From positions 496,001 to 560,000 of the forward strand of contig NZ_JALEGV010000012.1 in the NCBI RefSeq assembly GCF_022763245.1: a DNA stretch of 64,000 bases, in the 5' to 3' direction. The notes below the pieces were generated by a model that ran no database searches, had not been told where the DNA came from, and was given only the letters and a program-made list of their open reading frames with translations. Positions 4,645 through 21,516 of the stretch are shown here, one piece after another. The DNA is from Oricola sp. Lineage in GTDB: Bacteria; Pseudomonadota; Alphaproteobacteria; Rhizobiales; Rhizobiaceae. The position numbers were made by a program, and so were the translations under genes. Each line of letters opens with the position of its first letter. Position 1 is the stretch's first letter.

Positions 4645-4719
4645 GGGCGGTTAGCTCAGCGGGAGAGCACTACGTTGACATCGTAGGGGTCACTGGTTCA
4701 ATCCCAGTACCGCCCACCA
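4645..4719 (+). tRNA. tRNA-Val (GAC)
   Basis: A full 75-nt cloverleaf. The acceptor stem is GGGCGGT with ACCGCCC, and the D arm is TAGCTCAGCGGGAGAGC. The anticodon stem is CTACG/CGTAG with loop TTGACAT (anticodon GAC), and the T stem is ACTGG/CCAGT with loop TTCAATC. CCA is encoded. Its 3' half is repeated in diverged form at 14499-14544, which makes it the likely integration target of the island to its right. Confidence 0.97.
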
Positions 4720-4724
4720 TCCAA

Positions 4725-4752
4725 AACCTAAGTTATTACTGACACTTAGGTT
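4725..4752. repeat. Inverted repeat beside the tRNA 3' end
   Basis: AACCTAAGT (4725-4733) is inverted as ACTTAGGTT (4744-4752) with a 10-base AT-rich loop, six bases after the tRNA CCA. It has no T run, so it is a weak terminator. It could be part of an integrase core or arm site, since an integrase remnant follows. Confidence 0.45.
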
Positions 4753-4822
4753 GACAATTTTCCGACGAACGAACCTTAAGCATTTCTACTGGCCATACTC
4801 TGGTCACAGCAGAGGCTTCGCG

Positions 4823-5047
4823 ATGGCTGCAATCCGCAAGCATCGGGAAAAATGTCAGGCCGAAATCTGCGGACACCGTGTCCCATCAATCTCCCGCTTG
4901 TGCCGTCAGCTGAAAGACACCAAAGAATGGGCGAGGCGGATGGAGGCGCAGGCGGACAGGCAAGAAACTATACCCGGCAAGAAGGCTCTGGAAACAATCT
5001 TAGTCGGTGATTTGGTGCAGCGCGCCCACAAACTGCCGTTTGTATGA
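4823..5047 (+). pseudogene. Truncated tyrosine-type phage integrase, N-terminal remnant
   Basis: The 74 codons from MAAIRKHREK onward match the arm-binding N terminus of rhizobial island integrases. The expected pattern is MATIRKHRxKWQ, then P-x-SRSF, then A-EWARxMEAxADR, then LE-x-x-x-x-DLVxRY. Here it reads CQAEICGH, PSISRLC, EWARRMEAQADR and LETILVGDLVQR, and is lost right after DLVQR. The catalytic domain is absent. Adjacent to the 3' end of a tRNA, this is the normal place for an island integrase; the gene is dead. The first 20 codons of the open frame before 4823 have no family likeness. Confidence 0.65.
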
Positions 5048-5105
5048 CGACTTGAGGTCTCTCAAATGTATCCCGGTCAAGTACGACAACGACTTTCGCA
5101 GAGCA

Positions 5106-5282
5106 AAAGCCTTTCATCGCCGTGTGCCAAAGCGCTGCATCGACGCCGCGGAACATGCTGCAATCGAATGGGTCGATCAGTCTAACAACCGCTGCCTATT
5201 AATACCCATCGCATACGTCCCGCCAGTAGATGTCACAACTGACTTCTACGCTGTTCTGGATATGTCATTAGAGGCCGCGTAG
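5106..5282 (+). pseudogene. IS3-family transposase OrfB, C-terminal remnant
   Basis: About 58 codons resemble the C-terminal end of IS3-type transposases: FHRRVPKRCIDAAEHAAIEWVD, then NNRCLLIPIAYVPP, then FYAVLDMSLEAA. The usual wording is IHRRGPWRSFEAVEYATLEW, then NNRRLLEPIGNIPP, then YYAALE. Only this tail survives, with several unusual substitutions, and it ends at a stop at 5280-5282. No terminal inverted repeats were identified. Together with the broken integrase it marks an old, inactive island end. Confidence 0.65.
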
Positions 5283-5327
5283 CTCATGCCAACCAGCCTT
5301 TGGCAAGCCCGGCGCGGTTCAGATCGG

Positions 5328-6455
5328 TCACGACGAAACCGCAGACGATATTACATGCTCTGATTCACTTCTCTCGAATGCAACTCCTTTGCCGTCGAAG
5401 AGATGGGCGACTGTCTGCGAGAAAGTCAGATGGACCTCGTCGCCGGCACGCAATCCGGACCGCTCGCGGGCCTTGATGACGAATTCGGTTCCCGTCGGAG
5501 ACACCGCCTCCACAAGCGTTTCGTCACCCAGTTCCTCGACAAGGGTTATTGTCGCGTTTCCTGCTTCTTTCCCCGCGGGGTCGAGAACCAGATCTTCCGG
5601 ACGAATCCCGAGCGTCACGCTTTCTCCCGCTCTCGCGTCGCGGCCGTCTGCAACCGGGATGTGGCTCTCGCCGAATTCGTCGCTTGCCACGCGCAAGCCC
5701 GTCGTGTCGGCGGAGACGACTCGACATTCGATGAAGTTCATCTTCGGCGACCCGAGGAAGCCGGCCACGAACAGATTGCGCGGTGCATGGTAGAGCTCCA
5801 GCGGCGTTCCGACCTGCTGCACTTCGCCGGCATTCAGGACGACAATGCGGTCGGCCAGCGTCATCGCTTCCACCTGATCATGGGTGACGTAGATCATCGT
5901 CGCTTCGAGCCGGGCATGCAGCCGGGCGATCTCGCGGCGCATGCTGACGCGCAAGGCCGCATCAAGGTTCGATAGCGGTTCGTCGAACAGGAACACTTTT
6001 GGATTGCGAACGATCGCGCGACCGATCGCGACGCGCTGCCGCTGCCCCCCAGACAGTTGCCCCGGCTTGCGCTCCAACAAATGCTCCATCTGGAGTATCT
6101 TTGCGGCGTCCCTGATACGCCGGTCGATCTCGTCCTTGGGTCGCCGCGACAGTTTGAGGGCGAACGCCATGTTCTGGTAGACGGTCTTATGCGGATAGAG
6201 CGCATAGGTCTGGAAGACCATCGCAATGCCGCGCTCCTTGGGAGACTCGTCGTTGCAGATCTCGCCGCCGATGCGCACATTGCCGTCGCTGACGTCGTCG
6301 AGACCGGCGATCATCCGCAACAGTGTCGATTTTCCGCAGCCCGAAGGCCCAACGAAAACGATGAACTCGCCGTCGGCAACCTTGAGATCGACGTTGCGAA
6401 TGATCTCGACGGCGCCGATGGATTTCGAGATGTTTTCCAATTGCAGCGTGGCCAT
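5328..6455 (-). CDS. Sugar ABC importer ATPase (UgpC/MsmK class)
   Basis: A 375-residue cytoplasmic ATPase that powers the sugar importer encoded upstream in the same operon. It has Walker A GPSGCGKST (36-44), signature LSGGQ (134-138), Walker B VFLFDEP (154-160) and a switch His in YVTHDQVEAMTLADR. The C-terminal third is a TOBE/OB domain (about 240-370) as in MalK/UgpC. The open frame extends far upstream, but the ATG at 6453-6455 with GGAAAG before it starts the conserved MATLQLENIS. It is the last gene of the amino-sugar operon, 23 bp after the SIS deaminase gene. In related clusters this ATPase can be shared between importers. Confidence 0.9.
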   Translation of the reverse strand: MATLQLENISKSIGAVEIIRNVDLKVADGEFIVFVGPSGCGKSTLLRMIAGLDDVSDGNVRIGGEICNDESPKERGIAMVFQTYALYPHKTVYQNMAFALKLSRRPKDEIDRRIRDAAKILQMEHLLERKPGQLSGGQRQRVAIGRAIVRNPKVFLFDEPLSNLDAALRVSMRREIARLHARLEATMIYVTHDQVEAMTLADRIVVLNAGEVQQVGTPLELYHAPRNLFVAGFLGSPKMNFIECRVVSADTTGLRVASDEFGESHIPVADGRDARAGESVTLGIRPEDLVLDPAGKEAGNATITLVEELGDETLVEAVSPTGTEFVIKARERSGLRAGDEVHLTFSQTVAHLFDGKGVAFERSESEHVISSAVSS

Positions 6456-6478
6456 GAAGTTCGTCTTTCCGGACGGAC

Positions 6479-7507
6479 CTACACGGTCCGCGTCACTTTC
6501 CTGAGATGGCGCGGATTGTCGGGATCGTTTCCGAGCTTGCGCGACAGACGCTCGATGAAAACATAGAAGGAAACCGCCTGACAGATCGGCGTCAACGCCG
6601 GATGCGGAGCAGCGGGGCTTTCGAGATGGCCCGGAATTTCCCCATCGAAATCGTCGACGAGCCAAACATCCGCCCCGGCTTCCCGCATCCTTTGAGCGGT
6701 TTCCAGGACCCCTCCGCGGCTTTCGTCCGACGGCACGAAGAAGAGTCCTTTCAATCCCGCATCGGCGAGCGCGAACGGGCCATGGAGGACTTCCGCGGAA
6801 CTGTAGGCCTCCGCATGGAGCCGGCAGGTTTCCTTGAACTTGAGCGCCGCTTCCGCCGCGACCGCCAGGCCCATGCCGCGGCCCACGCAGAAGATCGGCC
6901 CGGGCGCCCGGAAGGCCTCGTCGGCAGCCGTCCAATCGGCTGAGATTGCGCGGTCAAGTGCGTCCGGCAAGGCGTGGAGTCCCTCTTCAAGGTCGCTGTC
7001 TCCGGTCCATTCCGCGACGATACAGGCCATCGCGATCAACGATGCCACATAGCTCTTCGTCGCAGCCACAGAGACCTCCGGCCCCGCAAGCAGCGGCGCT
7101 GGCAGATCGACCAATTCCTCGAGCGGAGATCCGCCGGCATTGACCAGCGCGGCCGTCGTCGCCCCGCCCTGCGCACCAGCGGTGACAAGCGACAGAAGAT
7201 CGGGGCTCGCGCCGGACTGCGAGATCGCAATCAGCGCTGCGCCGTCCAGACGCAACCGCGTCCCATAGACCGAAGCGACGGACGGACCAAGCGACGCGAC
7301 GGGCCGCCCCACATGCGTCTCCACCACATATTTCAGGTAGGAGGCCGCATGGTCCGAAGAACCGCGTGCAGCCGTTACGAGCACGGGCGGATCGAGGCGT
7401 CGAAAACGCGCCCCGATCTCGCGATAGGCATCCAGCCCGTCCGTCAGCTGTCTGCGCGAGACCTCGGGAATCTCCCGTGTCTCGCGCGCCATCATCGTCT
7501 CAACCAT
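6479..7507 (-). CDS. SIS-domain aminosugar deaminase/isomerase (NagB-II/AgaS type)
   Basis: A 342-residue protein with two SIS domains, resembling the isomerase half of GlmS without the glutaminase half. Motifs are ARGSSDHAA (about 48-56), ISQSGASPD (about 95-103), VAATKSYVASL (about 147-157) and LKFKETCRLHAEAYSSAEVLHGP, containing the Glu/His residues of the GlmS isomerase site. Such proteins replace NagB and turn glucosamine-6-phosphate into fructose-6-phosphate plus ammonia in several proteobacteria. The context (nagA, sugar kinase, importer) supports that role. The start at 7507 has GGAG eight bases upstream; an upstream ATG at 7552 overlaps the previous stop but lacks good spacing. Confidence 0.85.
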   Translation of the reverse strand: MVETMMARETREIPEVSRRQLTDGLDAYREIGARFRRLDPPVLVTAARGSSDHAASYLKYVVETHVGRPVASLGPSVASVYGTRLRLDGAALIAISQSGASPDLLSLVTAGAQGGATTAALVNAGGSPLEELVDLPAPLLAGPEVSVAATKSYVASLIAMACIVAEWTGDSDLEEGLHALPDALDRAISADWTAADEAFRAPGPIFCVGRGMGLAVAAEAALKFKETCRLHAEAYSSAEVLHGPFALADAGLKGLFFVPSDESRGGVLETAQRMREAGADVWLVDDFDGEIPGHLESPAAPHPALTPICQAVSFYVFIERLSRKLGNDPDNPRHLRKVTRTV

Positions 7508-7544
7508 TCGCGTCTCCGAACCATGTCGCGCGCGAGCCGCTGGA

Positions 7545-8339
7545 TCAGGCATCCCCTTTCATTCGCGACTTGAAGAAGTCGAGATGCTTCTCCTGGGCGT
7601 CGATCATGCGGGCGCGATACTCGCCATAGATCTGGTCGGTATCGTGCAACGTCACACCCTCGATCGTGGGCGACGCGAATGTCGGCAGTTCGATACCCTT
7701 CTCGGCGAGTTTCTGTGCTGTCTGCGCGACGAGCTCGTGCATCATCATCATCGCCAGCACGGTCGACGACCCCGCGACCGGGCGCGACCAGCCGTCCACG
7801 GGCACGATGGCGTCCTCGATCGGTGCGCAGGTGTCGATCACGACATCCGCGGCGTCGGCCAGGCGCTTGCCGGAGGAATGAGTCGCCGGTTTGTCCAGAT
7901 TCGCCTTCGCGTTGATCGCGATGACGGTCATGCCGCGCTTCTTCGCGTAGAGCGCCGTATCGATACCGGACGCATTGCGGCCGCTATGGCCGAAGATCAC
8001 GATGCTGTCGCCGGGATTGAGCGGCTGGTGATCGAGAAACTTGTCGGCGTAATTTTCGGTGCGCTCCAGCCAGAGCAGCTCTCGCACGCCACCGGCGCCC
8101 AGCACGTTATGCCACATCAGGCGCGGATCGGTGAGCGGGTTGAAACCGACATAACTGCCGTAGCGCGGAAAGGTTTCTTGCGCCGGCAGAACGGAATGGC
8201 CCGAACCGTAGAGGTGGATCAACCCCTTGCCCGCGAGGGTCTCGGCGAGAGCGGTCGCGGCAGCCTCGAACGCCTGCGCGTTATCCTTGGCTGCGCGCTC
8301 CGCCAGTTCGAGCAAACGGCTGATATAGAGCGTGGTCAT
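7545..8339 (-). CDS. SIS-domain protein, UPF0309-like
   Basis: A 264-residue single-SIS protein. It has HLYGSGHSVLPAQETFPRYG (42-61, phosphosugar-binding loop), IVIFGHSGRNASGIDTALYA (about 113-132) and VIAINAKAN with the following SSGKRLADAADVVID. This is the UPF0309 pattern, whose substrates are poorly known; related SIS proteins are phosphosugar isomerases or etherases. Lying in the same operon as the deaminase-type SIS protein, it may handle a second phosphosugar, for example from N-acetylmuramate or mannosamine, but nothing in the sequence decides that. The gene starts 27 bp after the regulator gene ends. Confidence 0.75.
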   Translation of the reverse strand: MTTLYISRLLELAERAAKDNAQAFEAAATALAETLAGKGLIHLYGSGHSVLPAQETFPRYGSYVGFNPLTDPRLMWHNVLGAGGVRELLWLERTENYADKFLDHQPLNPGDSIVIFGHSGRNASGIDTALYAKKRGMTVIAINAKANLDKPATHSSGKRLADAADVVIDTCAPIEDAIVPVDGWSRPVAGSSTVLAMMMMHELVAQTAQKLAEKGIELPTFASPTIEGVTLHDTDQIYGEYRARMIDAQEKHLDFFKSRMKGDA

Positions 8340-8366
8340 TATATTCGATGCCTTTCTATAGCGATT

Positions 8367-9110
8367 TCAAATGTGAAGTTTGGAACGGATCTCGTAGCGG
8401 TCTCCCCGCATGGTCGAGACCGCAAATTCGAATGGGCCCTTGCTGTCGGAGGTGATCCTGCGAACGATGAAGGCAGGGCTGCCGGCGTCGACATCGAGTA
8501 GCGACGCATCCTGCTCCGAGACGGTGCCTACGCGATAAATTTCGCGGGCCAGTTTCGGCTCGATCGCGAACCGGTCGCGCAGGACGTCGTAGAGCGAGAG
8601 GATGGGTTCTGCGATTTCCAGCAGCCCGGTAACGCGGCCGGACGGCAGGTAAGCAGTCTGGATGCCGATGGGTTGATCGTTGCCCGCCCTCAACCGGCGG
8701 AGCTTGACGACGGGCGAGCCTTCCGGGATTTCAAGCGCGCCCGCGACTTCCGTATCGGCAGGCAATTCGATCATCTCCAGAATCGTGGAACCGACCACCA
8801 GTCCCCGGTCAGCCATCTCCTGCGTGAAGCTCGTCAGACCGCGAACACCGGCGATAACCGTCGAGCTTCGCACGAAAGTCCCGCGTCCGTGTTCACGTCG
8901 CAGCAGGCCCGATTCCTCCAAGTTGCCGAGCGCATGCCGGATCGTGATGCGGCTGACACCCAGCATCTCGCTGAGTTTTCCCTCGTTGGGGAGTTGCGTA
9001 CCGTCCTGCCACGTCCCGTCGGCGATAAGTGACCGCAGAGCCGATTCGGCCTGGTGCCAGAGCGGTTCCGGCCGCTTGCGGTCCGGCCGAGCGATATTGC
9101 CGATTTTCAT
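8367..9110 (-). CDS. GntR/HutC-family repressor of the amino-sugar operon (NagR-like)
   Basis: A 247-residue regulator. The N-terminal winged helix (about 15-80) has LWHQAESALRSLIADG, LPNEGKLSEMLGVSRITIRH and LLRREHGRGTFV. The C-terminal UTRA effector domain (about 90-240) has IPEGSPVVKLRRLR and LAREIYRV. UTRA domains of NagR/YvoA bind GlcNAc-6-P or GlcN-6-P and release DNA. The start at 9110 has GGGAGGG upstream and overlaps the kinase stop (ATGA). The palindrome GGTTATAACC in the SBP-nagA intergenic region is the best operator candidate. That it controls this cluster is inferred from position. Confidence 0.88.
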   Translation of the reverse strand: MKIGNIARPDRKRPEPLWHQAESALRSLIADGTWQDGTQLPNEGKLSEMLGVSRITIRHALGNLEESGLLRREHGRGTFVRSSTVIAGVRGLTSFTQEMADRGLVVGSTILEMIELPADTEVAGALEIPEGSPVVKLRRLRAGNDQPIGIQTAYLPSGRVTGLLEIAEPILSLYDVLRDRFAIEPKLAREIYRVGTVSEQDASLLDVDAGSPAFIVRRITSDSKGPFEFAVSTMRGDRYEIRSKLHI

Positions 9111-9988
9111 GAGCCCTCCCTCCCCGTCCAAAGTGCGTGCACTCCTGCGGCAAGCCCGGCTCCAAAGAGGCTTGCACGCGGTCCAAAACGTCCCGTCACG
9201 ATTTCGATTGCTCGCAGATGCGGCGGAAGCTGACGCCTCAGTGCAGGCAGGATCATCGGCGAAAGCACACCGATGCCCTCGGCTACGCCACCCGAAACGA
9301 TTACCGCCTCGCTGCCGAGGAGAGCGACCGCTCCGGCAAGCGTCGCCGCTAGGGCATTTGCCGGGCCTGCAAGAACCGCTTTGGCATCCGCATGGCCTTC
9401 TGTTGCCGCGGCAATGAGATCGGCTCCCTTGTTCAACTCCGTGCGGCGGGCAAGGGCATCGAGCGCTCGTCCCGAGGCCTGCCGTTCAAGCCAGCCATGC
9501 TTGTCGTCACCGCCGTCACTCATGTCGGCACTCGCCCATCCAAAGGATGTCGCAGCGCCGTTCGCGCCACGAACGATGCGCCCGTCGGCAAGAACAGCCG
9601 AACCAATCCCTGTACCGATGGCCAGGAGAATTGCATTGGAAACGGTTTGTGCCGCGCCATGGGCTGCCTCGGCCAGCAGCGCCAGCTGGGCATCGTTTCC
9701 AAGCGCCAGCCGGACATCCGGGAAGGTCGAGGCCAGATCGACCCCGTCGAGATACGGAAGATTAGGTACCCAGGCGCAGCGCGAACCGGTCGCAAGACCG
9801 GGCACCGCGACCCCGAGGCGCGAAACACCGTGTGCGGAGATGAGATCATCGATCCTGTCACGAAACGCGCCAAGGCTTTCTGGTGCGGGCCAGTGGCCGA
9901 CAGGTTGCGGCTCCGCCACGGAACCTTCGGCTATCACGCCCGCTCGAAGGTTTGTCCCACCGAGATCGATGCACAGGGTCGCGCTCAT
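9107..9988 (-). CDS. ROK-family sugar kinase (GlcNAc kinase candidate) lacking the zinc motif
   Basis: A 293-residue ATP-dependent sugar kinase. The phosphate-1 motif DLGGTNLRAG (8-17), catalytic Asp99 in LALGNDAQLALLAE, and phosphate-2 LAIGTGIGSAVLADG (about 122-136) are present. The C-terminal adenosine motif is VSGGVAEG. The ROK zinc motif CxCGxxGCxE is missing: the equivalent stretch (158-169) reads DGGDDKHGWLER, with Trp where the second Cys pair ends. The ASG after it is kept. It probably phosphorylates imported GlcNAc to GlcNAc-6-P, the NagA substrate. ATG overlap with the permease gene upstream (4 bp) and the repressor downstream (4 bp) shows tight coupling. Confidence 0.85.
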   Translation of the reverse strand: MSATLCIDLGGTNLRAGVIAEGSVAEPQPVGHWPAPESLGAFRDRIDDLISAHGVSRLGVAVPGLATGSRCAWVPNLPYLDGVDLASTFPDVRLALGNDAQLALLAEAAHGAAQTVSNAILLAIGTGIGSAVLADGRIVRGANGAATSFGWASADMSDGGDDKHGWLERQASGRALDALARRTELNKGADLIAAATEGHADAKAVLAGPANALAATLAGAVALLGSEAVIVSGGVAEGIGVLSPMILPALRRQLPPHLRAIEIVTGRFGPRASLFGAGLAAGVHALWTGREGS

Positions 9989-10854
9989 CCCTTGACCCCC
10001 GTGCTGACGATGCTGTCGACGAAGAAGCGCTGCAGGAACACGAAGAGCAACAATGGCGGCAAAACGGCCAGCGTCGCACCCGCCATCACGAGACCGGTGT
10101 TCATCGCGCCCCTGTTGTAGCTCAGGAGGCGACCGAGGCTAAGCACGATCGGATAGTCATCCGTGTTGCCCTGCAGCACGGTGAGCGGCCAGAGATAAGT
10201 ATTCCAGTGGTAGACGAACGCGAACAGCGCGAGGGCAGCAATGGCCGGGATTACTGCCGGCGCGACCACCGAGAAGACGATACGTAATTCCGACGCACCG
10301 TCGACGCGAGCCGCATCGATGAGATCGTCCGGAACGCCGGCAATGAATTGCCGCATGAGGAAAATGCCGAATGCGTTCGCCAGATAGGGAACGATGACAC
10401 CGAACAGGTGACCGTCCAGACCCATGTAGGTGACCATTCGGAACAACGGTATCAGCACGACGATCGGAGGCAGAAACATCGTCGATATCAGCACGGCAAA
10501 CAGGATATCCCGGCCGCGGAAACGGTACTTCGCAAAGGCATAACCCGCCATGAGACTGGTCACCAGAATACCGGCCGTCGTTACCGTGGCGATCACCGCG
10601 GAATTCCAGAATGATCGTGCAGCATCGATGACGTCGGCAACTTCACGATAGGCCGTCAGCGAGGGCGTGGACGGGATCCAGACGGGTGGCGTCTGCATGC
10701 TTTCGGCCGGTGTCTTCAGGCTCGACAGCAACATCCAGACCAGCGGAAATGCGGCGATCACCGAAATCGCGACGATCGCAAAGAAGAGCAGGGAATTGCC
10801 AGTATGACGGCGAATCCTGCGCAGGCTGCGCCTTCCCGGCGACATCGCCGTCAT
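9985..10854 (-). CDS. Sugar ABC importer permease, MalG/UgpE type
   Basis: A 289-residue inner-membrane protein with six predicted spans (first at about 20-42). The EAA loop that docks on the ATPase reads DAARVDGASELRIVFSVVAP (about 181-200). The MalG-type C terminus ends FFVDSIVSTGVKG. It overlaps the MalF-type permease gene by 4 bp and the kinase gene by 4 bp. Substrate specificity comes from the binding protein at the head of the operon; an amino sugar or chitooligosaccharide is inferred. Confidence 0.92.
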   Translation of the reverse strand: MTAMSPGRRSLRRIRRHTGNSLLFFAIVAISVIAAFPLVWMLLSSLKTPAESMQTPPVWIPSTPSLTAYREVADVIDAARSFWNSAVIATVTTAGILVTSLMAGYAFAKYRFRGRDILFAVLISTMFLPPIVVLIPLFRMVTYMGLDGHLFGVIVPYLANAFGIFLMRQFIAGVPDDLIDAARVDGASELRIVFSVVAPAVIPAIAALALFAFVYHWNTYLWPLTVLQGNTDDYPIVLSLGRLLSYNRGAMNTGLVMAGATLAVLPPLLLFVFLQRFFVDSIVSTGVKG

Positions 10855-11741
10855 GTCCTCTCCTCCTTCTGACGCGCGAGCGAGAATATCAGGACGATCA
10901 CGACGATTAGAGAGAGCATCAGCATCACCGCCATCGCGGAACCCAGCCCGCCCTGCGCGCGCTCGATGCCAACGCGTCGGATATGGAAGGTCAGCACATT
11001 CGTCGAATTTGCGGGGCCGCCCTGGGTGATCAGCGCAACTGGCTCGAAGACCTGGACCGCGTTGATCACGGCAATCACCGCCGAGAACAGCAAGGTCCGC
11101 CGCAACAGCGGCAGGGTCACTCCGAAGAATTCCTGAACCGGGTTCGCCCCATCGATCCTGGCCGCCTCATGAAGCGACGACGGTATCTGGGTGAGACCCG
11201 CGATGGCGAGAATTGTGAAGTAGCCGACCTGCTGCCAAACATTAAGAATGACGATGGAATAGAGAGCGGTGTCGGGCGATGACAGCCATGCCTGAGGTCC
11301 GATCCCGATCCAGGAAAGGATCTGGTTCAACGGCCCCTCGCTCGGCGAATAGAGCTTCGACCAGACCAGCGCAACGGCGATCATAGGCACCATGTAGGTG
11401 GAGAACAGTATCGTGCGCAGGAATTGCCCGCCCGCGACTCGGCTCTGATAGACAAGCAGCCCGAAAATCACGGAAAGCGGCAGGATCGCGATGACCGAGA
11501 GAGCCGTATAGATGGCCGTGTTCAGGAAAGCCCGCTTGAAATCCCGTCCCACCGATATCGGACCGAGAATGTCTTCATAGTTGCGGAGGCCAACAAAACG
11601 CGCGGCCTCGAATCCGGTCTGTGTCGACCATTGGTGAAACGACAACCAGATCGTCAGCACCATCGGCACGAAAATGAAGACACCGATCAGCGCCACCGCT
11701 GGTGACACCATGATCCAGGCCGACCGTTTCTCAGCGCGCAT
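10851..11741 (-). CDS. Sugar ABC importer permease, MalF/UgpA type
   Basis: A 296-residue membrane protein with six spans. The EAA motif is EAARIDGANPVQEFFGVTLP (about 204-223), and FVGLRNYEDIL (about 49-59) is typical of the periplasmic part. The start chosen is MRAEKRSAW at 11741, which has TCTGGA upstream; an in-frame start at 11789 would add 16 residues and overlap the leader after the binding-protein gene. It pairs with the permease encoded next. Confidence 0.92.
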   Translation of the reverse strand: MRAEKRSAWIMVSPAVALIGVFIFVPMVLTIWLSFHQWSTQTGFEAARFVGLRNYEDILGPISVGRDFKRAFLNTAIYTALSVIAILPLSVIFGLLVYQSRVAGGQFLRTILFSTYMVPMIAVALVWSKLYSPSEGPLNQILSWIGIGPQAWLSSPDTALYSIVILNVWQQVGYFTILAIAGLTQIPSSLHEAARIDGANPVQEFFGVTLPLLRRTLLFSAVIAVINAVQVFEPVALITQGGPANSTNVLTFHIRRVGIERAQGGLGSAMAVMLMLSLIVVIVLIFSLARQKEERT

Positions 11742-11807
11742 CGATATCCAGACCCAAATGACGCGGGCGCGCCGAAACGCGCCCGCCAATGAAGTTGCCG
11801 CCGCGAC

Positions 11808-13091
11808 CTAGCGCTGCGCGCGTTCGAGAATGGAATCCGCGTCGGCCTGAGCGTTCTGTTGAGCCTCCTGCGCAGAAATCTGTCCATACTCCAGCTGTTC
11901 GATCACCTGCTGGAGCGCGTCGGAGAACTCCTGACCGCCGAGGACGACCGGGAAGGCACGCGCGTTTTCGAGCGACGAGACATAACCCTCGAGGAACGGG
12001 CGGCCCAGCGCTTCCTCGAACGCCGCGACATCCGAAGTGCGCGATGGCAGGATACCCATCGACTGCAGGATCCCAGCCATCGCCGAAGCGCCGTTCTCGC
12101 CGGAAGCTGGTCCGTCCAGCCACGCCAGGAAATCCCAGGCGGCGGCCTGTTCCGTATCCTCGGCGCCGGCGTTGACCACGGTCATCCAGGAATAGGAAAT
12201 CGACCGCGACGTATCGCCGCTCGGTCCGACCGGAATCGGCGCGGTTCCGATATTGGCGACATCCTCGCCCATGCCGGCCTTCAGCGCGCTTTCCCACCAG
12301 TTCGCCATGATGATCATGCCGGTATTGCCGGACACGAAATTGTCCAGGAACGGCCCTGTCGTGTTGGCATCCGACGTTCCCATCGCGGGATCGGTGTAAC
12401 CTTCCTTGATCATGGTCTCGTAGAGCTCGAACGTCTCGAGCGCCTGCTGGCTGTCGAGCTGCGGCTTGCCGTCAGCGATCAGCGCTCCACCGTTGGAGGC
12501 AAGAAGAGACGCGAAGGGGTGAACGACGCCCGCCGCCCAGGAATTGATCAGGCCGAAGCCCTGCTTGCCGTCCGCGCTCAGCTTCGCGGCCGCATCCTGG
12601 AGTTCGGCCCAGGTTGTCGGGGGCGCGGAAATACCCGCTTCCTCGAACATCGCCTTGTTGTAGTTCAGGGCGTAGACGTTGATTTCATTGGGGATGCCGT
12701 AAATTTGACCATTGACGGCCGCCGCGGAGGCAATGCCCTCGGGCCATTCGGACGTCACCTCGTCTGAAACGGATTGCGGTGCGGGCGCGACAAGTCCGTC
12801 ACGAACGAGTTCGGGAAGCCAAAGGTCGTAGATGCTCGCGATGGTCGGGCCATCGCCCGAACCGCCGGAGCGAATCGTCGTCAGCAGATCTCCGAAAGGA
12901 ACCGCGCGGACGGAAATCGTGACGCCGGGATTCTGCTCGCTATAGGCGCTTGCAGCCTCTTCGAGGAGCTTGACGGTATCCGGAGCCCAGTGCGTCAAAT
13001 AGGTAAGTTCGACGTCCTGCGCGGAGGCCGCGAAGGGCGTCAATACAGTGGCGGCGAATGCTGCGATGCGGATCTTGGTCATTGCGTTCAT
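11808..13091 (-). CDS. Sugar ABC importer periplasmic binding protein
   Basis: A 427-residue family-1 extracellular solute-binding protein. A signal peptide (about residues 1-24) ends at ASA, with the mature protein starting QDVELTYLTHW. The fold markers of family 1 are the early VELTYLTHWAPD strand, INSWAAGVVHPFASLLASNGG in the middle and a GENGASAMAGILQSMGILPS hinge near 355-375. It is the first and largest gene of the minus-strand operon, as is common for high-abundance binding proteins. The start at 13091 has GAGGGAGAA upstream. Ligand is not readable from sequence; N-acetylglucosamine or its oligomers is inferred from the operon. Confidence 0.9.
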   Translation of the reverse strand: MNAMTKIRIAAFAATVLTPFAASAQDVELTYLTHWAPDTVKLLEEAASAYSEQNPGVTISVRAVPFGDLLTTIRSGGSGDGPTIASIYDLWLPELVRDGLVAPAPQSVSDEVTSEWPEGIASAAAVNGQIYGIPNEINVYALNYNKAMFEEAGISAPPTTWAELQDAAAKLSADGKQGFGLINSWAAGVVHPFASLLASNGGALIADGKPQLDSQQALETFELYETMIKEGYTDPAMGTSDANTTGPFLDNFVSGNTGMIIMANWWESALKAGMGEDVANIGTAPIPVGPSGDTSRSISYSWMTVVNAGAEDTEQAAAWDFLAWLDGPASGENGASAMAGILQSMGILPSRTSDVAAFEEALGRPFLEGYVSSLENARAFPVVLGGQEFSDALQQVIEQLEYGQISAQEAQQNAQADADSILERAQR

Positions 13092-13127
13092 GCCGGTTCT
13101 CCCTCGGAATGCGGACGTGGATAGGTG

Positions 13128-13179
13128 GTGACAATCATTCCTAAAATAGGTTATAACCACATAACGATTTGTCTGTAAA
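13128..13179. promoter_or_regulatory. Overlapping divergent promoters sharing one palindromic -10, with operator
   Basis: The palindrome GGTTATAACC (13149-13158) contains TTATAA (13151-13156). On the plus strand GTGACA (13128-13133) lies 17 bases before it and points to nagA. On the minus strand TTTACA (13179-13174) lies 17 bases before the same TTATAA and points to the binding-protein operon. Two promoters therefore use one symmetrical -10. The palindrome also has the TGGT..ACCA-like outline recognised by HutC-type GntR repressors, so one bound repressor would shut both. Confidence 0.6.
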
Positions 13180-13200
13180 TCACTTCGGAGAAAAATCGCC

Positions 13201-14295
13201 ATGACAGTCATCGAGGGGCGCGTGCTTACCCCGGACGGCCTCCGCAACGCCCGGGTGTCGATCGAGCACGGACGGATCGCCCGGATCGAGAAGCGTGGTG
13301 TGGTGGGAAACGACCTGATCCTGCCCGGCTTCATCGACCTGCATTGCCATGGCGGTGGAGGAGCTGACATCATGGAGGCCGGCGACGCCCCAAGCCGCGT
13401 CGCGAGCGCGCACGCGGCAAACGGCACGACGGCATTTCTCGCCACAACGATGACCGCGCCGCTCATCGACATTGAGGCAGCACTCGTTTCCGTCCGCGAC
13501 TGCGCGAGCGCCTTGCGAAACGACGAGGCCGCCATTCTCGGAGTCCATCTCGAAGGCCCCTTCATCGATCGCGAGAAGCTCGGCGCGCAGCCGGACTTCG
13601 CGATCGATGGCGACACGGCGCTGATGCAGCGCTTGATGGCGCTCGCCGAAATCCGAGTTGTGACCTGCGCGCCGGAGGCGGATCCGGACGGCGCGATGAC
13701 ACGCTGGCTGCGCGACCGTGGCGTCCGCGTGCAGATCGGGCATTCGTCCTGCGATTACGAAACCGCCGCGAAGTGTTTCCTGGGCGGTCGCCACGGCGTA
13801 ACCCATATGTTCAACGCGATGTCGCCGCTACACCATCGCGCACCGGGCATCGTCGGCGCCGCTCTCGCCCACGCGGAACATGCCGAACTCATTCCCGATC
13901 TCCTGCACGTCCATCCGGGCGCCATCAGGGCAGCTCTCCGGGCCATCCCGAACCTCTATGCCGTCACCGACGCGACCCCGGCATCGGGTATGCCCGATGG
14001 CGATTACCGTTTGGGTACGCAGCATGTGCGCAAATGCGGAAATGGCGTTCGGCTCGAGGACGGAACGCTCGCCGGCTCCAGCCTCACGATGCACCAGGCA
14101 TTCCGCAATCTCGTGGAAATCGGGCTCTCGCCGGAAGAGGCGTCGCGAAGGACATCAACCATTGCGGCGGACTATTTGGGCATTCGCGACCGCGGCCGCA
14201 TCGCGCCAGGTGCGATCGCGGACCTCGTGATTGTCGACGAATCTCTCGAGATGAAGTCAGTTGTCTTGCGGGGAACTGAGTTCAGCGGATCGTGA
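13201..14295 (+). CDS. nagA: N-acetylglucosamine-6-phosphate deacetylase
   Basis: A 364-residue amidohydrolase that converts GlcNAc-6-P to GlcN-6-P and acetate. Signature residues are FIDLHCHGGGGADIMEAG (45-62, with Cys49 between His48 and His50), Glu118 in HLEGPF, His181 in GHSSCD, His202 in THMFNAMSPLHHR and Asp257 in VTDATPASG. CGGAG lies 11 bases before the ATG. It is divergent from the importer operon and shares its control region. Its product feeds the SIS deaminase. It is the last gene before the tRNA-like repeat that may end the island. Confidence 0.93.
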   Translation: MTVIEGRVLTPDGLRNARVSIEHGRIARIEKRGVVGNDLILPGFIDLHCHGGGGADIMEAGDAPSRVASAHAANGTTAFLATTMTAPLIDIEAALVSVRDCASALRNDEAAILGVHLEGPFIDREKLGAQPDFAIDGDTALMQRLMALAEIRVVTCAPEADPDGAMTRWLRDRGVRVQIGHSSCDYETAAKCFLGGRHGVTHMFNAMSPLHHRAPGIVGAALAHAEHAELIPDLLHVHPGAIRAALRAIPNLYAVTDATPASGMPDGDYRLGTQHVRKCGNGVRLEDGTLAGSSLTMHQAFRNLVEIGLSPEEASRRTSTIAADYLGIRDRGRIAPGAIADLVIVDESLEMKSVVLRGTEFSGS

Positions 14296-14498
14296 ACGAA
14301 CTTAGACGTTGTGAACAATCGGCTCACACATCGACTTGGCATCGAACGCTGATCCGGTATCACAACAAGCGACATACGTCGTTCCAGGTAGGGTCACCGA
14401 CCCTGTTGAGCCTCATACTGGTGCCGAATCTGCCCGGCACGGCCTTTTGCGAAGTGCTCTTTTCCCGGAGTTCCAACGCGTTCCGGTAGGTCCGGAAT
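14296..14498. other. Gene-poor right end of the island
   Basis: No credible gene lies between the nagA stop and the tRNA-like repeat. The reading frames here are short and have no family likeness. The sequence is somewhat richer in A+T than its surroundings at 14330-14400. I see no clear terminator after nagA. Confidence 0.5.
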
Positions 14499-14544
14499 GT
14501 TGATATCGTCGGGGTCACTGGTTCGATCCCAGTGCCGCCCACCA
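14499..14544 (+). repeat. Diverged copy of the tRNA-Val 3' half (probable attachment-site remnant)
   Basis: These 46 bases match the tRNA-Val 3' half (4674-4719, anticodon loop through CCA) at 42 positions. The differences are C to T in the anticodon, A to C in the anticodon stem, A to G in the T loop and A to G in the acceptor stem. The 5' half of a tRNA is absent, so this is not a functional gene. Together with the integrase remnant beside the intact tRNA it fits the two ends of an integrated island of about 9.8 kb. Confidence 0.75.
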
Positions 14545-14626
14545 TCATCCCGAAAAGCACCTTGAGACAAAGCAGCCTCACTGGCTTCGAGAATCGGCCC
14601 GTCACGAGCCGATCCCCCGCTACCGA

Positions 14627-15619
14627 TCAAAGATAGTCGATGTGAATGAACAGGTCGCCTCCGGCGATCGGATCCAGCGGGCCGAGGCCGCCCAGATCGC
14701 CGCCGAAGTCGCCCGGGATGGTGACTGAGATCCAGAAATCCTCCGCCTTGTCGCCCTTCTCGTCGATCAGGTCAGACAGGAGGATGTCGTTCCAGCCGTC
14801 GTCCCCGCCCTCGCCCGAGGGGTAGGACACGAAGTCGAACTTGGTGTCCGACAGCATCGCGATCAGCGCGGCACCATCCTGGATGTCCAGGCCATTGTCG
14901 TCGCCATCCTTCAGAATCAATCGTTCGCGCAGGCTCGCGAGGAACTCCTCCATCTCTTCCGATGTCATGTCGGCCTTGTAGACCGGCCCGTCGGGGTCAC
15001 TCGTCGAGGTCTTGGGAATTCCGGTCGTGTGTTGACCGCCCAGAAGACTGTCCTCGGTGTTTCCGCCGCCGCCCTCGCCGGATTCATTGGAGGTGCCGCC
15101 ACCGCCCAGGCCGGTCGTGTGTTGGCCGCCCAGCAGGCTGTCGGCGGTGCTTCCGCCATCCGAGCCGCCCTCGCCGTCATTGGCGGTGTCGCCCTTGCCG
15201 AGACCGTTGGTGTGCTGGCCACCCAGGAGGCCGTCGTCAGTGGAGGAACCGTCCTCGTTGGCGAGATAGGATCCGCCGCGCGGCCCGATGTCCAGAAGAT
15301 CGAGCAACAGATCGTCGCCCGCCGCATCCGTGACATTGATGAAATCGGTCAGGATCCCGAAATCCATCGCCTCGACGACGCTTCCGAGCTTGGTGATCAG
15401 ATCGACCGCGGTCTGAAAATTCCCCGCATCGAAAGCGTCGGAGATCGAACCGAGCACCTTGATGAAATCGGAGAACGCGTCCCCGGACGCAGACCCCTTG
15501 CCATCCAGGCTGAATGACTTTTGCCATTCGCCCGAGGCAACAAGCTTGGAATCGAGGAAGTCGGATATGTCGGCGATCAACTGAGAATAGATGATCGGAT
15601 TTGTTTTCAAAGCTGCCAT
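14627..15619 (-). CDS. Unrecognised acidic protein with three LLGGQHT repeats
   Basis: A 330-residue protein I do not recognise. Residues 1-120 are helical and contain AFSDFIKVLGSISDAF and DLITKLGSVVEAMDFGILTDF. Residues 125-205 are a Gly/Ser/Asp/Thr-rich linker carrying LLGGQHT at 131, 162 and 192, a spacing of 31 and 30 residues, each followed by a small variable Gly-rich piece. A calcium-loop-like DGDDNGLDIQDG lies at 238-249. The C terminus (300-330) is Gly-Asp rich and ends FIHIDYL. There is no signal peptide or membrane span. Acidic, repetitive, Gly/Asp-rich and without Cys, it recalls proteins secreted by type I systems, but no RTX nonapeptides are visible. It lies between the island end and the surface-sugar operon. 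Confidence 0.7.
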   Translation of the reverse strand: MAALKTNPIIYSQLIADISDFLDSKLVASGEWQKSFSLDGKGSASGDAFSDFIKVLGSISDAFDAGNFQTAVDLITKLGSVVEAMDFGILTDFINVTDAAGDDLLLDLLDIGPRGGSYLANEDGSSTDDGLLGGQHTNGLGKGDTANDGEGGSDGGSTADSLLGGQHTTGLGGGGTSNESGEGGGGNTEDSLLGGQHTTGIPKTSTSDPDGPVYKADMTSEEMEEFLASLRERLILKDGDDNGLDIQDGAALIAMLSDTKFDFVSYPSGEGGDDGWNDILLSDLIDEKGDKAEDFWISVTIPGDFGGDLGGLGPLDPIAGGDLFIHIDYL

Positions 15620-15790
15620 CTCTAGTCCCCTTCAACAGAATTTGACGGCAAGCCTGACTCCAATCGAAGCAGAAGAATGTGCTTTCCGGCACACCTGAAG
15701 CGGAAGGGGCAATATCCGCCCGGCAATACTGCCGAATTGAGCTCTTCGACGGAGACCATGTCGATGCAGCAACTCGGTCGAACCGGATCG

Positions 15791-16750
15791 TCAGGCGGTC
15801 TTCGCCTGGAAACGCGCCTGCGTCAGGTCGACGAAACGCTGCACCGTCCGTTGCCCGTCCTTTTCCTGCTGGCGCAGATACCCCTCGACGAGATGCCGGG
15901 TTGCGCGCGCATGCGTCAGATCGTCGAGCCCGTAGGCAATGCCGTAGCGGCCCGGCGGGTGATTGCGCACCCATTCCTCGCGGCAAGAATAGCGCGACGG
16001 GACGACGACGCTCAGGCACCCGCACAAAGCGGCGTATTGGGAGTAGAAGCTCGCCTCGTCATAGGAATAGAAGATGGTGCTGCGATTGAAGATCTCGGCG
16101 ATCTCGCCATGCGACATGCCATCGATTTGAACGGCATTCGCGGTCTCAGGGATCCGCGGCGTGTTCGCGCCCTTGCGCACGAGATAGCACGCCCCGGCAC
16201 GGTCGCTGCGCCCTTCGTCGCGATAGGCCGGATTGACCGTCCAGACGAAGAGATCCGTCGCGCCGCCCGTGATCTCCGGAATGTCGCAGATTTCCCCGAC
16301 CCGGAAGAACATCTCGTCCTTCGTGAAGGCATAAGGGTCTCTCAGGCCCGGCCTGTAGAGGAGCCAGCGGACCACGTTGGTGGCCTTGAGCGGATTGCCT
16401 AATGTCACTTCCGGATAGACGACGATGCTGGAAGAGCGCAGGTCGCGCGCCGTCGCCAACGGCGTGTTGAGGTCGGTGCTGACCGCGAACGGTTCCCAGA
16501 CAGCTCTCGGCGTCCGTCCACGCAGAACGCGCAACCCGTGCCTGAAGGACGTCCAGTCGAGGCTCCGCCCCGGCGGGCGATGCCATGGCCAGAGATAGGC
16601 TTCCTCGCCAAGCGAATTCAGGGCGTGAACCAGCTGGTGCAGGAATATCGACCCGCCGCCATCCGGGTCGTATGAGCTCGCATAGACGATATAGTTCGGG
16701 CGGTCAGGCCGCGCCCGTCCCCTCATCCCTCGACCGAGACTGGGAATCAC
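15791..16750 (-). CDS. Glycosyltransferase-like protein A (paralogue of 52583-53467)
   Basis: A 319-residue cytosolic protein of probable GT-B fold. The N-terminal half has VYASSYDPDGGGSIFLHQLV, where a Gly-rich loop precedes a helix as in GT4 enzymes. The middle has IVVYPEVTLGNPLKATNVVR followed by WLLYRPG. The C-terminal half has FYSYDEASFYSQYAALCGC, resembling the nucleotide-sugar site region. The protein at 52.6 kb has the same three blocks in the same order. A GTG start at 16750 overlapping the acetyltransferase stop (GTGA) has GAGG upstream; ATG at 16726 is the alternative. Last gene of the operon with a WecE-like aminotransferase, it probably transfers a sugar to a surface glycan. Donor and acceptor are unknown. 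Confidence 0.65.
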   Translation of the reverse strand: MIPSLGRGMRGRARPDRPNYIVYASSYDPDGGGSIFLHQLVHALNSLGEEAYLWPWHRPPGRSLDWTSFRHGLRVLRGRTPRAVWEPFAVSTDLNTPLATARDLRSSSIVVYPEVTLGNPLKATNVVRWLLYRPGLRDPYAFTKDEMFFRVGEICDIPEITGGATDLFVWTVNPAYRDEGRSDRAGACYLVRKGANTPRIPETANAVQIDGMSHGEIAEIFNRSTIFYSYDEASFYSQYAALCGCLSVVVPSRYSCREEWVRNHPPGRYGIAYGLDDLTHARATRHLVEGYLRQQEKDGQRTVQRFVDLTQARFQAKTA

Positions 16751-17313
16751 TCGCCCGCCTCGGACGCCAGGTAGCGTGCCTCCAGGTCGAGGAGATCGCG
16801 CCTGCGGTCCTTCAGCTTGCGGGCGGGAACTCCCGCATAGATCGACCACGGTTCGGTCGTCTCGCGGACGAGGGCGGCCGCGCCCACCGAGGTGCCTGCC
16901 GATAACGTGACGCCCGGCATGACGATCGCCCCTGCGCCGACAATGCTGTGACGGCACAAGCGCACCGGCTGCTTCACTTCGGTCTTGTAGCGCGCCGGCA
17001 CGGTCGGGTTGGTCATGGTCGCGCCGCTGTAATCGTCGGATTGGGTGAAGACCTGCGTGTGATAGGAAAGTGTCACGAAATCCTCCATCACGATGCCGGG
17101 CATGCCGCCCGCGACCAGCGCGAACGGGCCCACATAGACATTGCGCCCCAGTTCGACGCGGCCGGAAATCACGCAGAAATCGTCGATGCGGCTGTTGTCG
17201 CCGACATGCATCTGTTCAGCGCCATAGATCGAGGCCTTGTCGCTGATCTTCACGTCGCGGCCAAGCGACGCGAAGCCGAGCGCCTCCAATGCGTCACGCG
17301 ACAGATACGGCAT
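16747..17313 (-). CDS. Left-handed beta-helix acetyltransferase
   Basis: A 188-residue hexapeptide-repeat acyltransferase. Repeats with I/V/L every sixth residue run from about 20 to 170, for example VKISDKASIYG, VGDNSRIDDFCVISG and HSIVGAGAIVMPGVTLSAGTSVGAAALV, ending YAGVPARKLKDR. The loop with YHTQVFTQSDDY resembles the O/N-acetyltransferases that act on nucleotide-amino sugars or sugar residues. It lies 87 bp after the WecE-like gene and overlaps the glycosyltransferase gene, so acetylation of a 4-amino-4,6-dideoxyhexose is a reasonable inference. GGAGGAGG precedes the ATG at 17311-17313; an upstream in-frame start is less likely. Confidence 0.85.
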   Translation of the reverse strand: MPYLSRDALEALGFASLGRDVKISDKASIYGAEQMHVGDNSRIDDFCVISGRVELGRNVYVGPFALVAGGMPGIVMEDFVTLSYHTQVFTQSDDYSGATMTNPTVPARYKTEVKQPVRLCRHSIVGAGAIVMPGVTLSAGTSVGAAALVRETTEPWSIYAGVPARKLKDRRRDLLDLEARYLASEAGE

Positions 17314-17400
17314 GGCTCCTCCTCCGCGCTCACCCAACGCAAGACCTAGTCGGCTTTGACGCCACGGGAAAGCCGCTTCAGCGATGAACCGGAAGAAGGC

Positions 17401-18573
17401 TCAGGCCGCGCGCCGGTCGCGCAGGCTTGCTCGCGCCGCCTCGATCACCACCTCGATATCCGCATCCAGTGCAGCGAACATTGGCAGGCGAACGAGGCGC
17501 TCGGCGGTGTCATTCGTCACGGGAAGATCGCCAGTGGATCGGCCGAAGCGACGACCGGCAGGTGACGAGTGCAACGGAACATAGTGGAAGGGCGTCACGA
17601 TGCCGGCCTCGCGCATATGCGCGATGAAAGCGTCCTGGTCGGCGCGATCGCGCATCAAAAGATAAAACATGTGGCCGTTGCCGGCGCAATCGTCCGACGC
17701 ATGCGGAAGGCCGACACGCCCCGCCGCCTCCAGATCGCGAAACGCTTCGGCATAGCGCTCGAACAGCGCCAGGCGCTTCTGTCTGATCGATCCGGCATGC
17801 CTGAGCTGAGCATAGAGAAACGCAGCCATCAGCTCGCCCGGCAGGAAGGATGAGCCGACATCGACCCATCGATAGGCATCCACCTCGCCGCGCGTGAAGG
17901 AGGTGCGGTTCGTCCCCTTCTCGCGGATGATTTCCGCTCGTGCGACGAGGTCGGCCCTGCGCAGCGCGAGCGCGCCGCCCTCGCCGCTCGTGACATTCTT
18001 CGTCTCGTGGAAACTGAACGTCGCGAGATCGCCGAGCGAGCCGACCGGACGCCCCTTGTAGCTGGAGCCATAGGCATGCGCGGCGTCTTCGACCAGGAAC
18101 AGGTCATGCGCGGCGGCGATCTCGGCCAGCCGGTCCATGTCCGCGGGAAAGCCCGCGTAATGCACCACGAAGATCGCACGCGTTCTCGGCGTGACGGCTG
18201 CCGCAACCTTGCCCGGGTCGATGTTGAGCGTGACAGGATCGATATCGACGAAAACGGGGGTCGCCCCGCGCAGGACGACCGCGTTCGCCATGGAGACGAA
18301 GGTGAAGGACGGCATGATCACCTCGTCCCCCGGCCCAATGTCACAGAGAAGCGCGGCCATCTCCAATGCAGCCGTGCAGGAATGGGTCAGCAGCGCGGCG
18401 CTTGCACCGGTCTCCTTGACGATCAGTTCGTTGCAAAGACGCGTGAAGGCGCCGTCGCCGGAAAGTTGCCCTTCCCGGATGGCGGCCTGGATGAAACCGA
18501 ACTCCTCCCCAACGACATATGGCCGGTTAAAGGGGATCCTCACCTCCGCCACTGCGTTCCTTTCATCTCCCAT
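17401..18573 (-). CDS. wecE: dTDP-4-amino-4,6-dideoxygalactose transaminase (WecE/RffA-like)
   Basis: A 390-residue PLP aminotransferase of the DegT/DnrJ/EryC1/StrS family. Lys192 in FSFHETKN forms the Schiff base. Long stretches follow the E. coli WecE wording: IPFNRPYVVGEEF, CTAALEMAALL with GDEVIMPSFTFVS, VVHYAGF, REKGTNRTSF, GNGHMFYLLM and FHYVPLHSSPAG. WecE makes dTDP-4-amino-4,6-dideoxy-D-galactose (thomosamine) for enterobacterial common antigen. Here the partner acetyltransferase is of the hexapeptide type and a glycosyltransferase follows, so a Fuc4NAc-like residue in a surface polysaccharide is inferred. The start could instead be the GTG at 18552 (AAAGGA upstream), seven codons later. 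Confidence 0.88.
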   Translation of the reverse strand: MGDERNAVAEVRIPFNRPYVVGEEFGFIQAAIREGQLSGDGAFTRLCNELIVKETGASAALLTHSCTAALEMAALLCDIGPGDEVIMPSFTFVSMANAVVLRGATPVFVDIDPVTLNIDPGKVAAAVTPRTRAIFVVHYAGFPADMDRLAEIAAAHDLFLVEDAAHAYGSSYKGRPVGSLGDLATFSFHETKNVTSGEGGALALRRADLVARAEIIREKGTNRTSFTRGEVDAYRWVDVGSSFLPGELMAAFLYAQLRHAGSIRQKRLALFERYAEAFRDLEAAGRVGLPHASDDCAGNGHMFYLLMRDRADQDAFIAHMREAGIVTPFHYVPLHSSPAGRRFGRSTGDLPVTNDTAERLVRLPMFAALDADIEVVIEAARASLRDRRAA

Positions 18574-18633
18574 GCCGGGGCTGCTCGCAGGACAAGCCGG
18601 TGAAAGCACCGTGCGAGGTGGCCTCGACCTGCC

Positions 18634-20966: not shown

Positions 20967-21169
20967 GCCGACCCCCTCTGCAAATGCCTGTTGACGGTGA
21001 AGGCTAGGCGAAACGGCCTCCCGTCCGCCACCGCTTCCACGCCATTCCACCGACCGTTTGCGCCACGCCTGGACAAAGCGGCGCGGCCTCGTCACATTTT
21101 CGATCCGCCGCCGCTATCATGATGTAAGAGGAAAGGCGACAACGAACCGAATGCGAAGTGGAGACAGGC

Positions 21170-21421: not shown

Positions 21422-21516
21422 CCCGCATGCGTCCGGCGCATCGCAGGCCTTGATCACGCCACGGCCGATGCGTAAGGCAGGCATGACCTCCCTGAATCCG
21501 GACTGTGCGAAAAGAC

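Follow-up and report, generated by a model that had tools for sequence, protein, structure and literature searches.

A nine-gene amino-sugar catabolic unit of Oricola, probably the cargo of a decayed element targeted to tRNA-Val

How did nine amino-sugar genes come to lie between an intact tRNA-Val gene and a displaced copy of that gene's 3' end? The question is raised by a stretch of 64,000 nucleotides from Oricola sp. (positions 496,001 to 560,000 of contig NZ_JALEGV010000012.1; genome of 5.63 Mb, handled here as G000), which we call the window and to which all coordinates refer unless another sequence is named. An earlier inspection of the DNA letters, the sequence-only reading, had taken the locus for a domesticated integrated element with metabolic cargo and no intact mobility gene. 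Our analysis makes it probable that the nine genes (the nag unit) are the cargo of an integrative element which was inserted into the 3' end of the tRNA gene by a tyrosine recombinase, now reduced to a stump. Codon use, the stump and the tail of an IS3 element speak for the integrated element, and purifying selection on all nine genes speaks for its domestication; the proposed empty site did not stand, nor did the limit that had been set for the foreign DNA on the right.

ARAGORN called a single tRNA across the window, tRNA-Val(GAC), where the sequence-only reading had placed it. The displaced copy of tRNA bases 30-75, in which 42 identities in 46 bases had been counted, was also recovered. 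It cannot be attributed to chance, because the second-best match to these bases in the window reached only 24/46 on the plus strand and 25/46 on the minus strand. Among the four changes in the copy, one from C to T turns the anticodon GAC into GAT at its third base, and one from A to C affects the anticodon stem. As both would be unfit for a working tRNA-Val, the copy likely drifted after its displacement and does not represent a tRNA-Val variant of the donor. An antisense frame spanning the copy (14360-14605, minus strand) reads GGTGIEPVTPT, which we take to be a frequent spurious annotation over tRNA ends.

The broken integrase and the IS3 tail that had been reported right after the tRNA were borne out by similarity. 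The stump shares 61% identity over its 67 residues (E 6e-18) with an intact tyrosine recombinase of 334 residues that adjoins tRNA-Val in the congener G001, and the leader and integrase start of the two genomes are 71% identical in DNA over 244 columns. The catalytic domain of the G001 integrase (PF00589) begins at about residue 164 (C19:4535-5008), and the 67-codon stump therefore stops well before it. Residues 28-91 of the frame at 5007-5282 showed 47% matches, the places matched being annotated as IS3-family transposase in 5 of 8 listed records; at the DNA level, the resemblance to other copies stopped at 5321-5326 (best 8 of 20 records). Searched alone, neither the stump nor the IS3 tail gave a Pfam match, and no further copies of the tail were found in the same genome. 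Apart from these two remnants the unit consists of nine metabolic genes, with no working integrase or transfer gene.

Pfam and NCBIfam confirmed that all nine genes of the GlcNAc (N-acetylglucosamine)-type cluster described earlier are intact (5328-14295). Judging from the protein families, the pathway is likely one of GlcNAc import, phosphorylation, deacetylation and deamination. Uptake of an N-acetylated amino sugar, GlcNAc itself or a short oligomer of it being most likely, would fall to the binding protein, the two permeases and the ATPase. The ROK kinase would phosphorylate the sugar; NagA would then take off the acetyl group and the NagB-II-like protein would deaminate glucosamine 6-phosphate to fructose 6-phosphate. 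Among the solved relatives of the NagB-II-like protein, 8eol is named glucosamine-6-phosphate deaminase, while the best two, 7kqa and 3fj1, are named otherwise.

Evidence that the unit has a history of its own came from the comparison with Oricola indica JL-62 (G005; nag contig record NZ_JAINFJ010000006.1), which alone among five congeners carries this unit. Its DNA is 89.4-89.6% identical to window 5325-14545; the matching ends at the tRNA copy and at the IS3 end, and O. indica gave no match to the window DNA on either outer side of the unit. Syntenic flanks were 74-84% identical in pieces of more than 100 bp, one piece of 81 bp reaching 88%. The median synonymous divergence (dS) was 0.40 for the nine nag genes (proportion of synonymous differences, pS, 0.23-0.34) versus 0.86 for 34 flanking genes (lowest pS 0.324), a significant difference (Mann-Whitney, one-sided p 3.5e-6). 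The nag genes were paired by name for this test, and 34 of 35 flanking pairs were kept, the gene at 14-361 being left out as seemingly paired in a wrong frame (pS below the nonsynonymous proportion, pN). The GC content at third codon positions (GC3) averaged 0.736 in the nag genes and 0.842 (sd 0.039) in the 34 window flanking genes (p 3e-5), and codon use differed, in the comparison of cluster and flanks that the sequence-only reading had suggested. Both divergence and composition are thus unlike the backbone, as in a tRNA-targeted island. The ratio of nonsynonymous to synonymous divergence (dN/dS) between the window and O. indica was 0.02-0.20 over the nine genes, which indicates purifying selection.

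The DNA between nagA and the tRNA copy bears on whether the unit entered once or moved again. This spacer of 203 bp is 75% identical between the window and O. indica, so that the association of copy and unit predates the divergence of the two units. On the assumption of equal change in both lineages, the spacer predicts about 6.6 changes in 46 bases for each of them. The window copy has 4 changes (P of 4 or fewer, 0.22), and the O. indica copy has none (P 0.0014), which suggests that the latter was renewed, through either re-integration or a conversion templated by the intact tRNA. We weighed the possibility of a single entry of unit and copy, in an ancestor common to both species, after which homologous exchange between the species, by way of the tRNA they share or of the unit itself, cut the divergence and the other congeners lost the unit. 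The homologous spacer and the likely presence of the unit at the same locus in both species agree with such a single entry, but the outer flanks have nothing in common to the left or to the right, four of six Oricola genomes lack the unit, and the unchanged O. indica copy is not what it predicts; on balance we think it rather unlikely. Even less probable, to our mind, is a nag unit still alive as a cis-mobilizable cassette, shuttled among Oricola species by resident tRNA-Val integrases and given a new tRNA copy at each re-integration. Were that so, the divergence of the scar would date the last jump, old and drifting in the window (4/46) and fresh in O. indica (0/46), with operons about 10% different, and the conserved SIS_2 enzyme of the unit would add a step of amino-sugar metabolism not described so far. 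The locus is a small case with clear bounds for comparing a catabolic operon and its tRNA scar across two species, at a hotspot that is likely the same in both; integration age, as measured by the divergence of the scar, can be weighed against cargo age.

O. indica also informed us about the left edge of the unit. To the left of its ATPase gene, the DNA resembles the neighbourhood of the cluster ATPase in two further genomes, G316 and G140 (65-67% over about 320 bp), and the IS3 join in the window is therefore likely the younger, secondary state. This bears on the proposal that IS3 transposition or illegitimate recombination placed the nag genes beside the tRNA, the copy being left from an unrelated earlier element. 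The coincidence of the left edge of the shared unit with the IS3 end in the window invites such an explanation, but the tRNA copy and the 203-bp spacer travel with the unit in O. indica, where the left DNA is moreover that of other clusters, and we hold it to be very unlikely. Right behind its tRNA copy, O. indica carries a C-terminal remnant of another tyrosine recombinase (L074 16773-16931; G005:C39:206772-206930), which scored 18.4 bits for PF00589, under the cut-off; such a remnant is expected if an older element lies past the copy.

The sequence-only reading had predicted that relatives without the element would join position 4719 directly to 14545, and had thereby set the end of the foreign DNA at 14545. 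Neither was borne out. DNA behind 14546 adjoined tRNA-Val in none of 40 relatives (at most seven candidates scored per genome), and the sequence behind tRNA-Val in the five congeners gave no match to it. In the congener G004, whose genome is a single contig, 173 bp separate tRNA-Val from the gene starting at window 21505. The orthologous tRNA is thus empty in G004, as expected for a tRNA-targeted island, though without a 4719-14545 junction, and the copy at 14499 therefore lies as a scar inside a larger, composite hotspot. Relative to related genomes, the window has extra DNA from 4720 to about 18640 or 21500. The part at 14546-18640 matched the 40 relatives in pieces of at most 128 bases, which lie elsewhere in those genomes; it encodes a repetitive protein, a protein of 388 residues, a hexapeptide acetyltransferase and a WecE-type aminotransferase. 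The genes at 18649-20967 also adjoin the backbone in G003. Because foreign DNA continues past the copy, the tRNA-Val locus is likely a hotspot at which elements accrete side by side.

Several side observations were made in this second segment. The proteins at 14627-15619 and 15791-16957 (both minus strand; 330 and 388 residues) had no Pfam, NCBIfam or PHROGs match. The former shows by eye three repeats of the LLGGQHT-GLG or GIP type, and the latter had no match in plasmids. The acetyltransferase and the aminotransferase (16747-18609, minus strand) form a polysaccharide-type pair.

The DNA behind tRNA-Val differs among the six Oricola genomes compared. G002 has 9.4 kb there and G003 has 15.5 kb, with transporter and catabolic genes according to the frames read. 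G001 carries, besides the intact integrase, a 60/60 copy of the tRNA lying 3.8 kb from the backbone on another contig, while the integrase beside the tRNA of G003 is recognisable over 119 residues only. Candidate copies were also found in other genera (n=8). Three of them concern tRNA-Val(GAC) with the tRNA on the same contig, in three other genera of the family: these copies of bases 29/30-75 are identical to their own tRNA and lie 12.6 kb (G012), 23.4 kb (G018) and 52 kb (G021) away from it. A recombinase domain lies near the tRNA in G012 (at about 0.14 kb) and near the copy in G018 (at 1.4 kb). The other five were rejected, as they concerned tRNA-Val(CAC) (G040, G050), a stretch without intact tRNA (G035, G036) or a tRNA-Leu end (G030). 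A count of the exact pattern with at most three mismatches in 61 genomes found a second copy only in G001 and O. indica; such a count overlooks the 42/46 copy of the window itself, as well as tRNAs of other genera that have diverged further. The right arm of the element (14330-14500) occurred in the window genome and O. indica only, among 297 family genomes, so that no sister element with another cargo was found there. For Oricola, tRNA-Val(GAC) is a place to seek species-specific catabolic genes.

Outside this locus, the genes of the unit are more widespread. SIS_2 proteins with at least 75% identity were present in 19 of the 297 family genomes, including both Oricola genomes. A comparison of cluster stretches covered 23 in all, namely those of the window and O. 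indica, those of the remaining 17 family genomes with such a protein, and four loci picked from 79 for holding the cluster. The SIS_2, GntR and ROK genes occur together in all 23, and so do the binding protein and the permeases, as far as the stretches extend. A NagA of this type lies beside this core in 7 stretches, and a NagB-II match of more than 45% identity in 3. The site TTATAACNNNATAA between the binding-protein gene and nagA of the window is present in 12 of the 23 and is predicted to be the operator of the GntR protein, which would control both promoters through this conserved TTATAAC-ATAA site. In G140 two frames, one NagB-II-like and the other a different NagA-like one, are oriented divergently from the binding protein, and in L263, L267 and L264 other NagA-like or amidohydrolase frames take the nagA slot beside the SIS_2-GntR-ROK-ABC core (both seen by eye); because the slot is filled in this way, the core seems to be separable as a module. 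Two genomes of a single genus (G179, G096) have tRNA-Gly(CCC) (L270 8287-8361 and L272 8329-8403) at 80-90 bp from the ATPase end of a nag-type cluster, where this module may have undergone a second tRNA-linked insertion.

A copy of tRNA-Val accompanies the cluster only in the two Oricola stretches. The situation that would have spoken against the sequence-only reading, the same cluster elsewhere without tRNA repeats, is therefore found outside the genus (21/21 stretches) but not within it, where O. indica carries the copy. Among the five congeners, NagA of this type was found in O. indica only; G002 has a NagA of 38%, and at an E value of 0.001 none was detected in G001, G003 and G004. In trees of NagA and of the binding protein, which that reading had also called for, the two Oricola sequences group together, but nothing points to a distant donor: with the nearest relatives in the same family or order, none could be named. 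This sister position and these close relatives are what one would see if the nag genes were old in Oricola, inherited vertically, and the tRNA repeat incidental. We find that hardly credible, since the dS of the unit is half that of its flanks, its codon use deviates, it is absent from four of the six Oricola genomes and G004 has an empty site.

We thus return to the integrated element, for which we propose the following history. Integration would have taken place at tRNA bases 30-75, with the tRNA restored at the left end of the element and its former 3' end displaced to 14499. An IS3 element may then have removed the greater part of the integrase along with the left portion of the integrated element, and the tRNA copy would have drifted while selection kept the cargo. 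The unit would then likely reflect an ordinary kind of gene acquisition, through a decayed tRNA-targeted element of a known type.

Some points weigh against this interpretation. The left edge of the shared unit is the IS3 end and not an attachment site, and the right tRNA copy, with its four changes, may no longer be a working site. The exact pre-insertion junction was present in no genome examined, and the trees yielded no foreign donor. In O. indica the tRNA-Val locus is divided over two contigs, one with the tRNA and the other with the nag unit, whose adjacency we infer. The low dS of the unit could also stem from homologous exchange between species, and 1 of the 34 flanking genes is as little diverged as the unit. 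This gene (56618-57811, plus strand; pS 0.324) may owe its low value to strong codon bias or exchange. Finally, the assigned substrate is unsure, because the NCBIfam matches of four kinds of protein (NagB-II, ROK, binding protein and permeases) are below the curated cut-offs.

Table 1. Features of the tRNA-Val locus in the window, with the evidence for each
Feature	Position	Strand	Basis or remark
tRNA-Val(GAC), intact	4645-4719	+	ARAGORN; likely integration core (attL side) in the 3' half, from base 30 on
Integrase (tyrosine recombinase) stump, first 67 codons, broken before catalytic domain	4823-5023	+	Similarity to G001 integrase
IS3-family transposase 3' tail and likely IS end; left edge of nag unit	5088-5324	+	47% over 64 residues; end of DNA homology
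ABC transporter ATPase, UgpC/MalK type	5328-6455	-	Pfam, NCBIfam
NagB-II-like glucosamine-6-phosphate deaminase (SIS)	6479-7507	-	NF046059, 288 bits, below cut-off of 430
SIS_2 protein, distant relative of Streptomyces NagS	7545-8339	-	NF002805 above cut-off; 9eol, E 3.5e-32
GntR/UTRA transcription regulator	8367-9131	-	Pfam
ROK family kinase, likely N-acetylhexosamine kinase	9107-9988	-	Pfam, NCBIfam
ABC permease, MalG/UgpE type	9985-10854	-	Pfam, NCBIfam
ABC permease, MalF/UgpA type	10851-11789	-	Pfam, NCBIfam
ABC sugar-binding protein	11808-13091	-	Pfam
Predicted operator of GntR regulator, GGTTATAACCACATAAC	13149-13165	+	Single window match, 0.03 expected
NagA, N-acetylglucosamine-6-phosphate deacetylase	13201-14295	+	TIGR00221, 251 bits (cut-off 225.65); 2vhl, E 2e-61
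Displaced copy of tRNA-Val bases 30-75	14499-14544	+	42/46 identical; likely right attachment site of nag element
Second foreign segment of hotspot, polysaccharide-type genes	14546-18640		Comparison with 40 relatives
3-Hydroxyacyl-CoA dehydrogenase/thioesterase and BKACE genes	18649-21095	-	Same place in G003, not in G004
Start of conserved backbone	21505-21984	+	173 bp past tRNA-Val in empty congener G004

Among the publications listed by literature searches, judged mostly without full texts, none was named on this island. We compared it with described systems part by part. The closest of only two solved relatives of the SIS_2 protein, by sequence, is NagS of Streptomyces coelicolor (9eol; 115 bits over residues 6-229), so that the two proteins are related. 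The available portion of PMC12680351 describes NagS as the GlcNAc-6-phosphate dehydratase of Streptomyces, with H53, R64, E94 and D179 as essential residues. All four are kept in the six cluster SIS_2 proteins compared (6/6), the columns being invariant in 11/11. In contrast, S91, S119 and N228 of NagS are replaced in all six (N228 according to the alignment to 9eol). The same portion limits the NagS clade to Streptomycetaceae and to at least 58.7% identity, and reports negligible or no GlcNAc-6-phosphate dehydratase activity for three homologues at 26-36% identity (PMC12680351). With its distant match to 9eol and the three replaced residues, the SIS_2 protein lies outside that clade, and these residues, together with the assays of distant homologues in that portion (PMC12680351), led us to reject its identification as NagS. 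Its AlphaFold2 model was poor (mean predicted local distance difference test, pLDDT, 58.8). NagS-like proteins to which no activity is assigned are a regular part of an alphaproteobacterial amino-sugar module.

As a regulon, the unit resembles the NagQ-type GlcNAc regulons of Proteobacteria, for which the accessible part of PMC5343134 lists a GntR regulator, nagA, a nagB-type gene and, in the core, a transporter of the phosphotransferase system. The window likewise has a GntR regulator together with nagA and a candidate nagB-type gene, but has an ABC transporter and a ROK kinase in place of the phosphotransferase system, plus the extra SIS_2 gene.

Three kinds of element were considered for the layout. 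Symbiosis integrative and conjugative elements (ICEs) of Bradyrhizobium integrate near tRNA-Val and left an attachment scar in one case, according to the portion available of PMC9239051. The window likewise concerns an alphaproteobacterium, a tRNA-Val target and a scar, but those are symbiosis elements with conjugation genes, whereas the window holds a 9-kb catabolic unit without any. The ssrA islands of Dehalococcoides are described, in what is accessible of PMC3146451, as tandem islands with catabolic cargo between repeats of the end of an RNA gene, some of them without an integrase. Catabolic cargo between RNA-gene repeats and the lack of an intact integrase are common to both; the Dehalococcoides islands differ in having a tmRNA as target and serine recombinases. 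The third kind are the cis-mobilizable elements (CIMEs), defined in the accessible text of PMC5704250 as integrated elements without integration and transfer genes which have kept attL and attR and often lie in tandem by accretion. Here, too, tRNA bases 30-75 are found at both ends of the unit: the cargo lies between the intact tRNA 3' end and its copy, the integrase is a stump, foreign DNA follows right past the copy, and integrases occur at the same tRNA in G001 and G003. The window differs in that its right site is changed, no transfer gene is seen in the unit and the sites are known by sequence alone. As far as the DNA goes, the layout fits a cis-mobilizable element in accretion.

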